The notes below the pieces were generated by a model. That model had not been told where the DNA came from. It did no database searches and saw nothing but the letters and a program-made list of their open reading frames with translations. A program made the position numbers and the translations under genes. A DNA stretch of 55,033 bases from Sulfurimonas sp. Lineage in GTDB: Bacteria; Campylobacterota; Campylobacteria; Campylobacterales; Sulfurimonadaceae. Below are positions 34,205 through 37,432 of this stretch, piece by piece. Position 1 is the stretch's first letter, and each line of letters begins with the position of its first letter. Location: the NCBI GenBank assembly GCA_013791885.1, contig VMSZ01000018.1, forward strand, positions 1 to 55,033, in the 5' to 3' direction.

Positions 34205-34933
34205 CTATCTTGAATAGCGCTTCAAAGCACTTTTTGTAAAATACTCGTCAGATATTTTACTGTCGTAGACTATTTCATTCAAAAATATCTCTGTGTAGTT
34301 TTGCGGTTTCTCGAGGGAACTGACTTTCCAGTACGTTGGAATGAAGTACTTTCCAAACTGCTTTACATCCTCGTAGATGAAAAATCTCACCTCTTTGTCC
34401 TCTTCATCATAAAAAACATCTTTGATTGGGGTGTAGTTTGTGGTGTCTATGTTTGTGATTATTTTACCCCACACGACGGCCGCGTTTTCTTTTGGAATGA
34501 GCTCAAGGGTAGTGATATTGCCCTCTTTTTTGAGGATTTTCGCGTCATAGTCATCCACAATGGAGCTCTGCTTTACCATGTCATCATTGGTAATGTCGCT
34601 TCCCATCCAGTTTTGCAGCATCATTGAAGGCGGGATTTTTATGACTCTCTCGATTTTGGGAACGTATTGCCACATTTGATTGTCTAAACTCAAGAAGGTA
34701 ATACCTCTGTCTTTGGGCGGATAGAGGATTTTAGTGAAACTTTTCTTATCTCCCTGCGAGTAACTTTCTATTTCCATACTTCGTTCATGGGAAGAAGAGA
34801 CAACTTTCATACTCATTTTGAGGTAGATGTCTTCACCACGCATATTTTGGTCAAGTTTTTTGATGATGTCATCAGCCTCATTAGCCAGCAGAAGTGCAGT
34901 AAAAGTAAAAAAAATGAAGAAAATTCTTCGCAT
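34205..34933 (-). CDS. LolA-like outer-membrane lipoprotein-sorting family protein
   Basis: A 242-aa periplasmic protein with a signal peptide (about 1-17, ALLLANEA). The body matches the LolA-like family often paired with FtsX-type permeases: YSQGDKKSFTKILYPPKDRG, LDNQMWQYVPKIERVIKIPP and MLQNWMGSDITNDDMV are highly typical. The fold is a half-open barrel that shields a hydrophobic cargo. Its natural partners, the LolCDE-like permeases and ATPase, lie 7.6 kb away on the same strand with a block of plus-strand signalling genes between. It is convergent with the soluble kinase gene. Confidence 0.88.
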   Translation of the reverse strand: MRRIFFIFFTFTALLLANEADDIIKKLDQNMRGEDIYLKMSMKVVSSSHERSMEIESYSQGDKKSFTKILYPPKDRGITFLSLDNQMWQYVPKIERVIKIPPSMMLQNWMGSDITNDDMVKQSSIVDDYDAKILKKEGNITTLELIPKENAAVVWGKIITNIDTTNYTPIKDVFYDEEDKEVRFFIYEDVKQFGKYFIPTYWKVSSLEKPQNYTEIFLNEIVYDSKISDEYFTKSALKRYSR

Positions 34934-34966
34934 TTAGACTCCTTTTTCTGCGCTATTGTAACGTAT

Positions 34967-36250
34967 TTATCTTTGCGGTCTGCCTGCGTTTGGCTTCTGA
35001 GAGGTTCTTGGTCTGTTAGAAGGTCTGCCACCACCGCCGGCACCTTTTGGTTTCGCAGCTCCGCCACGATTTCCACCGCGGTTACCGCCCATACTTACAG
35101 GTACGGCTTTGATGCTCGGGTCTGGTTTAAAACCTTTAAGTGCGATTTTTTGTATATCTTTTTTTATCAGTTTTTCTATATTTGCCAAAAATTCATGCTC
35201 ATCCACACACACCAAAGAGATAGCCTCGCCTTCATTTCCTGCACGACCTGTTCTACCGATACGGTGAACATAATCTTCGCTGACATTTGGAAGTTCAAAG
35301 TTTACAACATGAGGGAGCTGGTCAATGTCAATTCCGCGAGCCGCGATGTCTGTTGCAACTAAAACGCGGACTTCCCCTTTTTTAAAGTCATCAAGTGCTT
35401 TTGTTCTTGCGTTTTGGCTTTTGTTTCCGTGAATGGCTGCTGAAGTGATGCCGTCTTTTTCAAGCTGAGCACTCAGACGATTTGCTCCATGTTTTGTTCT
35501 TGTAAAAACTAAAACCTGTTGCCACTTGCCTTCATTTATAAGATGTGTTAACAATTCACGTTTTCTTTCACAATCAACAAGATAAATTGTCTGCTTTACA
35601 ATCTCGCTCGAAATATTTGCACGGGCAACTTCTATGAGTGTCGGTGCGTTTAGAAGTCTGTCAGAGAGTTTTTTAATCTCATCTGAGTAAGTCGCAGAAA
35701 ATAGAAGATTTTGTCTTTGTTTTGGAAGAATTGCCAAAATCTTTTTAATGTCATTTATAAAGCCCATATCGAGCATTCTGTCCGCTTCATCAAGAATGAG
35801 AAAACTCACATGAGAGAGGTCTATCGTTTTTTGAGATAAGTGGTCTAAAAGTCTACCCGGAGTAGCAATAACAATATCTACACCGTTTTTAAGTTTTGTA
35901 ATTTGAGGGTTAATTTTCACCCCTCCAAAAATAACGGTTGATTTAAATGGAAGATGCTTGCCGTAGAGCTCAACACTCTCGCCAACCTGTGCTGCAAGCT
36001 CGCGTGTAGGCGTAAGTATTAGTGCCTTTACATGATGCCCTTTTGTAGGTTTTGCTCTATGAAGCAATTCAAGCATTGGAAGTGTAAAACCGGCGGTTTT
36101 ACCTGTTCCTGTCTGTGCGCCCGCTAAAACATCTTTTTTTTCTAAAATAACAGGAATAGCCTGTTTCTGAATGGGCGTTGGTTTATCATAACCCTGTTCT
36201 TTAATTGCTTTTAACAGCTCTTTGGATAATCCTAAAGTTTCAAATGACAT
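34967..36250 (-). CDS. rhlE: DEAD-box RNA helicase, RhlE-like
   Basis: A 427-aa ATP-dependent RNA helicase. Q-motif [14 protein letters not shown], motif [11 protein letters not shown], Ia [40 protein letters not shown] and [10 protein letters not shown] are all intact. The C-terminal about 55 residues are a Gly/Arg/Pro-rich tail ([21 protein letters not shown]) for RNA contact. The start is set at ATG 36250 (MSFETLGLS), with GGAAA just upstream; the longer frame from 36286 adds 12 unlikely residues. It is divergent from the RecA2-like repeat protein across about 100 bp. Confidence 0.93.
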
Positions 36251-36305
36251 AAATTTCCTAATCTTAATATTTCTCCATAATAGCATAATTTATGCCTATA
36301 TGAGA

Positions 36306-36311
36306 TATAAT
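36306..36311 (+). promoter_or_regulatory. -10 element of the RecA2-like repeat protein gene
   Basis: TATAAT in the divergent gap between the helicase and the repeat protein, about 38 bp before ATG 36350. AGGA stands 6-9 bases before the ATG as ribosome-binding site. Confidence 0.5.
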
Positions 36312-36349
36312 TTCAACATATTTTAAATCCCTCCATCTTAGGACTCCTC

Positions 36350-37432
36350 ATGCCAGCAAAAGCCATCACTCTAAAATCAAACAATCACCGTATTTACCAA
36401 TGTTTTGAGAACAAAAAAAAGCAACTTTTAAGTGAGCTTATAGAGCAAAACAAAAATCTTGATATTCTCGTTGCAACGTCTAAAAACGCAAAGGGGCTTA
36501 AAGAGATTCATCCGGATGTTAAGATTTTGAGCGATGAAGAGCTTGCAGAACTCCCGGAGCTAAAATGCGAATATCTCATTAACTACGATTTAGCACAAAC
36601 GCCGCAAGATTACCTCAGCAGAGTTGCCAGAGCTTCGCAGCAATCTGTTGCCATTGTAGACATTGCAGAGCAAAAATTTCTTTATCCGATTGAGACAACT
36701 CTTGGCCGCGTCATCAAGCAAGAAGCTTTACCTGGTTATGGATATGTGACAAAAAAAGACATCATAAACGCAAAGAAAAAAGAAGAACTGCGCGAGATGA
36801 GAAAAAAAGAGGCTGAGAAAAAAGAAGAAAAAGGCGGTCGTGATTTCAAGCCTAAGAAAAGCGATAAAGAAAAACGCGAGTTCAGAGCTAAAAAAGAAGA
36901 TGGCGAGAAACGTGAATACAAACCAAGAAATGCTGAGGGCGAAAAACGCGAGTTCAGACCTAAGACAAATGACAGTGAGAAACGCGAATATAAACCAAAA
37001 AGTTTTGATGACAAAAAGCGTGACTTTAAGCCAAAAAGAGAAGATGGCGAAAAGCGTGAATATAAACCAAAAAGTGCAGACGACAAAAAACACGAATTCA
37101 AACCAAAAAGTGCAGACGGTGAAAAACGTGAGTATAAACCAAGAGCAATAGAAGGCGAAAAGCGTGACTTTAAACCTAAAACGAACGATGGTGAGAAGCG
37201 TGAATATAAGCCAAGAAACGCAGAGGGTGACAAAAAAAATGATGCTTGGGCAAAGAAGAAAAAAGCTTCCAGTAAATTTCTAGGTTATGATGAAACAGGC
37301 AAAGCAAAATTCACAGGAAAAAGCGGCGAGAGAAACCACCGTTATGACGGCTCCAAAAAAGAGGTTTTTGATGCTCCTAAAAAACCGCCAAGAGCTATTA
37401 ACATAAAAGCGCGTAAACCCGAAGAAAAATAA
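36350..37432 (+). CDS. Degenerate helicase RecA2 domain fused to basic 12-residue repeats
   Basis: A 360-aa protein without a recognised name. Residues about 10-135 align in order with domain 2 of the divergent DEAD-box helicase: IYQCFENKKKQLLSELIEQ against [19 protein letters not shown], and LINYDLAQTPQDYLSRVARAS against [21 protein letters not shown]. Motif V is missing, and motif [10 protein letters not shown] is replaced by SRVARASQ, so no ATPase activity is expected. Residues about 163-297 are eleven repeats of the type GEKREYKPK-x3. The tail has KFLGYDETGKAKFTG. It probably binds RNA and may assist the neighbouring helicase, which is inference. Confidence 0.8.
   Translation: MPAKAITLKSNNHRIYQCFENKKKQLLSELIEQNKNLDILVATSKNAKGLKEIHPDVKILSDEELAELPELKCEYLINYDLAQTPQDYLSRVARASQQSVAIVDIAEQKFLYPIETTLGRVIKQEALPGYGYVTKKDIINAKKKEELREMRKKEAEKKEEKGGRDFKPKKSDKEKREFRAKKEDGEKREYKPRNAEGEKREFRPKTNDSEKREYKPKSFDDKKRDFKPKREDGEKREYKPKSADDKKHEFKPKSADGEKREYKPRAIEGEKRDFKPKTNDGEKREYKPRNAEGDKKNDAWAKKKKASSKFLGYDETGKAKFTGKSGERNHRYDGSKKEVFDAPKKPPRAINIKARKPEEK
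36838..37236 (+). repeat. In-frame tandem repeat of 36 bp (12 residues), about 11 units
   Basis: The units encode (G/D)(E/K)KR(E/D)(Y/F)KP(K/R) plus three variable residues such as NAE, TND, SAD. DNA-level identity is high between some units (for example those reading GEKREYKPRNAE), which suggests expansion by slippage or recombination; the unit number may vary between strains. Confidence 0.88.

Follow-up and report, generated by a model that had tools for sequence, protein, structure and literature searches.

A degenerate RecA2-only protein with a charged repeat tail, encoded beside rhlE in Sulfurimonas, as a plausible RNA-binding partner of RhlE

What is the role of a protein that resembles half of a helicase core, has lost the motifs of catalysis, and is encoded beside a complete helicase? 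The question is raised by an open reading frame (ORF) at positions 36350–37432 (plus strand, 360 aa) of the window, by which we mean the whole 55,033-nucleotide stretch of Sulfurimonas sp. DNA analysed here; its neighbour, at 34967–36250 on the minus strand, is rhlE, which encodes a DEAD-box helicase. An earlier note, made from the sequence alone, had placed the ORF at these coordinates, which our analysis reproduces, and had described its product as a former helicase domain, now catalytically dead, that aligns with RecA2, lacks motif V, carries SRVARASQ as motif VI, and is fused to eleven basic repeats next to an intact helicase.

Domain annotation offers little help with the full ORF, which has no match at all in Pfam, the DEAD domain included, an example of how proteins of this sort can escape annotation by domain models. 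The N-terminal part alone gives a sub-threshold match to Helicase_C (E 0.06), while the NCBIfam RhlE model matches the N-terminus with an E-value of 8.7e-7. A profile built from 21 aligned orthologues (A1) retrieved 47 matches from the PDB, all of them DEAD-box helicases (best E 1.4e-6), and hhalign aligned the family profile with the RecA2 domain of RhlE over 122 columns (E 2e-15). An AlphaFold model of residues 1–154 has a mean pLDDT of 78.5; in the full-length prediction the RecA2-like domain is mostly above 90, and the model comprises a single RecA-like domain with predicted disorder after it. The best structural match of the model in VIA-align is RecA2 of Bacillus YxiN (2hjv_B; Z 15.2, 1.7 Å, 118 residues), and the best 50 Foldseek matches are almost all DEAD-box proteins. 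Relative to the RecA2 (Helicase_C) domains of RhlE, DbpA/YxiN and CshA, the predicted fold and the order of its elements are the same, with the motif IV region, an NYDLP segment, Y88 and R91 of motif VI, and the C-terminal IE helix in register. Homology of the N-terminus to DEAD-box RecA2 is thus well supported by profile and predicted fold, as the earlier note had suggested and had proposed to check by structure prediction.

Within the RecA2-like domain (residues 1–134; 36350–36751, plus strand), a remnant of motif IV is followed, in the hhalign alignment, by a deletion of approximately 26 residues before the NYDLP strand, with which motifs IVa and V are gone; in the A1 profile, motif V (ATDxAARGxD) is deleted or replaced. 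The remnant of motif VI, SRVARASQQ (36617–36643, plus strand), reads SRVARAS and contains an additional 5-residue deletion, so that the earlier description of motifs V and VI stands. R91, corresponding to the first arginine of HRxGRxGR, is the sole invariant motif VI arginine in the family, and the pattern with both arginine fingers is not found. RecA1, with motifs Q, I (Walker A) and II (DEAD), is absent from the protein as judged by Pfam and by the full-length model, and the loss of catalytic motifs is common to the 21 aligned orthologues. With motifs IVa and V and the whole of RecA1 missing and motif VI degenerate, the chain is not expected to have ATPase activity or, in contrast to bacterial DEAD-box helicases, to engage ATP or RNA through canonical contacts. 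With a predicted helicase fold and lost catalytic motifs, the protein has the features of a probable pseudohelicase, albeit one that comprises half of the helicase core only, and the reading of a catalytically dead former helicase domain is supported by profile, fold and motif evidence alike.

The full-length prediction joins this domain to the tail through a linker modelled as a long helix (residues 135–161; 36752–36832, plus strand). It is followed by exactly eleven 12-aa repeats of the EKREYKPRNAEG type (36833–37228, plus strand), predicted to be disordered and detected by TRF at periods of 36, 72 and 144 nt. While the number of units in the earlier note was right, "basic" requires moderation, as the units are polyampholytes with a net charge of 0 to +3 each, weakly basic and nearly charge-balanced, and the eleven-unit array is not conserved: orthologue tails are shorter or have expanded independently, spanning 74 to 220 residues, and every one of the 21 carries a net charge between +11 and +28. 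What remains constant is the net positive charge, usually a 25-residue cassette, and an IKxRK-like C-terminal end, seen here as RxIxIKxRKP (37391–37429, plus strand) by orthologue comparison. The cassette, FLGxDExGKAxFxGKSGERNHRxDG (37277–37351, plus strand; also written with S at the x of FxGK), is predicted to form a small beta-hairpin, the exception in a tail otherwise of low pLDDT and predicted disorder. It is nearly invariant, is present in 52 of the 76 named loci as well as in three genomes that belong to other genera, and was seen only inside this protein family. No significant match to it was obtained in Pfam, NCBIfam, PHROGs or the PDB, and we rejected the reading of it as a known domain. 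Separate tail expansions occur in relatives, for example KKEFKPRDDKREFKPRDD in L105 and, in genus g21, GDKKPY. Near-perfect charged arrays of seemingly independent origin are seen in L105:6001-6987 (KKEFKPRDDKREFKPRDD) and L149:6277-7506 (GDKKPYGDKKPY), and such independent arrays suggest that selection acts on composition rather than on sequence. We infer that the tail may bind RNA. In the closest relative fetched, a run of N lies inside the repeat array (L002:1000-1974).

In the family containing Sulfurimonas, whose members oxidise sulfur, orthologues were found in 73 of 81 genomes, and in none of the sampled Campylobacterota outside that family; the named loci are mostly from Sulfurimonas. 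In the phylum-wide search the weakest orthologue scored approximately 1e-30, as against approximately 1e-12 for true helicases. The domain is under purifying selection, with dN/dS between 0.05 and 0.13 in five pairs, so a function has been retained; no stops interrupt the orthologues among the matches listed. The protein evolves much faster than RhlE, with identities to the window's protein of 33–67% as compared with 79–94%. In a tree that carries a long-branch warning, the family, the RecA2 domains of helicases, and a second family of stand-alone RecA2 proteins termed REC2 form three separate supported groups. Because of these groups, and with that warning in mind, the data do not show the protein to be derived by copying of the neighbouring rhlE, and recent duplication of the adjacent gene appears unlikely.

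The adjacent helicase is intact, as the earlier note had it, and its score against the NCBIfam RhlE model is 665 bits, under the model's cut-off of 743; by sequence we consider it a good RhlE. Its true start is probably MSFETLG at 36250 rather than 36286, where the ORF list begins, since the predicted −10 element of the gene (36277–36282) lies inside the longer ORF. A 191-aa ORF at 34787–35362 (plus strand), antisense to rhlE and its neighbour, is probably a mechanical shadow ORF.

Synteny, the other check that the earlier note had named, supports the pairing: rhlE is divergently adjacent to the gene in 51 of 70 evaluable named loci. Of the outer flanks, the gene that follows downstream in the window is retained in 4 of 60 loci and the one on the far side of rhlE in 2 of 67. 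With a RecA-like fold predicted and a helicase gene close by in most relatives, both outcomes named in the note as speaking against its reading failed to appear. Across the 81 genomes, 70 have both genes, 6 have neither and 5 are discordant (Fisher p 7e-6, a value that ignores shared ancestry and therefore overstates the case). The six genomes with neither include three small ones, and independent co-losses may number only a few. The discordant genomes are G156, G002 and G193, which have the protein without this rhlE, and G092 and G420, which have rhlE without the protein; because they exist, the partnership is not obligate. The two genes lie 10–12 kb apart in genus g22 and one g77 genome, and both are present but unlinked throughout genus g21. 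We also considered whether an RhlE tail had moved in trans, and rejected this idea as the RhlE open-frame lengths in genomes lacking the protein (437 and 455) fall within the range of those that have it.

We propose, with moderate confidence, that the protein is a pseudohelicase derived from a DEAD-box protein and assists RhlE as an accessory that binds RNA without catalytic activity of its own. What the computations show is a RecA2-homologous domain with the matching predicted fold and without its catalytic motifs, kept under purifying selection, in a gene that is linked to rhlE, co-occurs with it and shares with it the conserved, promoter-like divergent arrangement described below. In such a mechanism, protein-protein docking would be the task of the RecA2-like fold, which would contact RhlE or the ribonucleoprotein on which RhlE works, and the tail, rich in lysine, arginine and aromatic residues, would hold RNA nearby. 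The protein may touch RhlE physically, and its effect would presumably be stimulation rather than inhibition. An RNA-binding partner that regulates RhlE is plausible; linkage and co-occurrence are circumstantial, and the weakly basic, nearly charge-balanced repeats count against it. More tentatively, a stand-alone RecA2 domain may have become a dedicated, dead partner of RhlE whose fast-evolving repeat tail and cassette recruit RNA or the ribosome.

The strongest alternative, possible if rather unlikely, is that the protein is an independent RNA-binding or ribosome-assembly factor in which the RecA2 fold is a mere scaffold, its link to rhlE reflecting a shared setting of RNA metabolism, such as cold, without direct contact. 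Such independence would account for the discordant genomes and the unlinked genera, for a rate of evolution so different from that of RhlE, and for the family-specific tail cassette, which suggests a partner of the protein's own. It sits poorly with a linkage to rhlE that is far better kept than that of the outer neighbours tested, and with the joint absence of both genes from six genomes.

The region between the two genes contains further conserved elements. A predicted extended −10 element of rhlE, TGCTATTAT on the minus strand, occupies 36277–36285, and its TAGCAT is conserved in 100% of 66 distinct linked intergenic regions. These regions share CATAATAGCATAATTTATGC, followed at a fixed offset in 55 of the 66 by TATAAT, which in the window is the predicted −10 element of the RecA2-like gene (36306–36311, plus strand; offset 30 from the core). 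Between the two −10 elements lies a near-palindrome, GCATAATTTATGC (36283–36295, no strand assigned), and the genome contains a single exact copy of the 17-mer around it. Ahead of the start codon, AGGA (36340–36343, plus strand) is the likely ribosome-binding site from sequence, and it recurs in most intergenic regions between the two genes. The conserved core is probably mostly rhlE's own predicted promoter, and not proof of shared regulation, because its rhlE half is degraded in loci where the genes are separate (2–5 mismatches in 12). The forward −10 element is retained in many of these unlinked loci, and TATAAT lies approximately 30–45 nt upstream of the RecA2-like gene in several; as it persists while the core decays, we rejected a shared operator at the palindromic core, which is better taken as the −10 element of rhlE. 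We also rejected a bidirectional promoter of the symmetric, 18-bp kind (PMC10268837) because the predicted starts are too far apart, and for the same reason the arrangement is best described as putative back-to-back overlapping promoters.

Competition between these promoters enters a second alternative, which we judge unlikely, namely that the protein is a negative regulator or decoy whose inactive RecA2 domain takes up a surface or an RNA required by RhlE, with the two genes competing for expression. The predicted −10 elements are approximately 29 bp apart, implying overlapping polymerase footprints, and a protein need not be a helicase to inhibit a DEAD-box protein, as RraA demonstrates (PMC3814787). 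However, the protein has lost those RecA2 motifs by which helicases contact RNA and ATP, so it could not compete through canonical RecA2-RNA contacts.

Epsilonproteobacteria possess RNase J and lack RNase E/G, and H. pylori forms a degradosome of RNase J and a helicase (PMC5874925). Against this background, the long, charged and predictedly disordered tail could be imagined as the scaffold of an RNase J-based degradosome, in the role of the RNA-binding scaffold of RNase E. We consider this quite improbable, as the protein family is absent from the other sampled Campylobacterota, which also lack RNase E according to PMC5874925. A decaying pseudogene or recently truncated helicase, for which the missing motifs might speak, is the least credible of all and is refuted by the family's conservation, by a dN/dS of about 0.1, by the lack of stops among the orthologous matches listed, and by the age of its separate clade.

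Returning to an accessory of RhlE, few pseudohelicases have been proposed, and the named cases are Utp25 and PriA of Deinococcus radiodurans (PMC9539457). Utp25/Def of the SSU processome is, like the present protein, DEAD-box-derived with lost motifs, and a helicase cofactor role has been proposed for it (PMC9539457), but it is eukaryotic and keeps both RecA domains, whereas the protein described here is bacterial and consists of RecA2 only. D. radiodurans PriA is likewise a bacterial helicase relative without helicase activity (PMC9539457), but it belongs to another helicase family and acts on DNA. E. coli RraA offers a functional comparison, in that it binds DEAD-box proteins and modulates their ATPase activity without being a helicase itself (PMC3814787); unlike the present protein, this regulator of DEAD-box proteins and RNase E is a ring-shaped trimer that is not derived from a helicase. 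A limited literature search found no bacterial RecA2-only pseudohelicase, and the literature on RhlE in Sulfurimonas and on inactive RecA2-only helicases yielded nothing on this family. If true, the proposed reading would describe a type of cofactor system, derived from a helicase, that this search did not turn up for bacteria. Were the partnership real, it would show half an enzyme put to new use as a regulator of the family it came from, and would offer, in bacteria without RNase E, a cofactor of a DEAD-box protein that can be tested.

The REC2 family noted in the tree is a second set of stand-alone, degenerate RecA2 proteins (approximately 180–250 aa) from the same bacteria, with ITTDKILQSLEL at motif V and motif VI lost. 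Members occur in the window's own genome (G000:C8; L026:2768-3307, minus strand), in L028, L029, L030, L138 and L142-L148, and, outside the family containing Sulfurimonas, in G375. They share with the rhlE-linked protein the RecA2-only architecture, degenerate motifs V and VI and a basic C-terminus, but they retain the IVa region and the full domain length, lack a long tail and form a separate clade. The neighbours of REC2 genes vary, and we rejected a helicase-linked system for this family; another DEAD-box gene lies within a few kb in two of the loci (L138 and L146).
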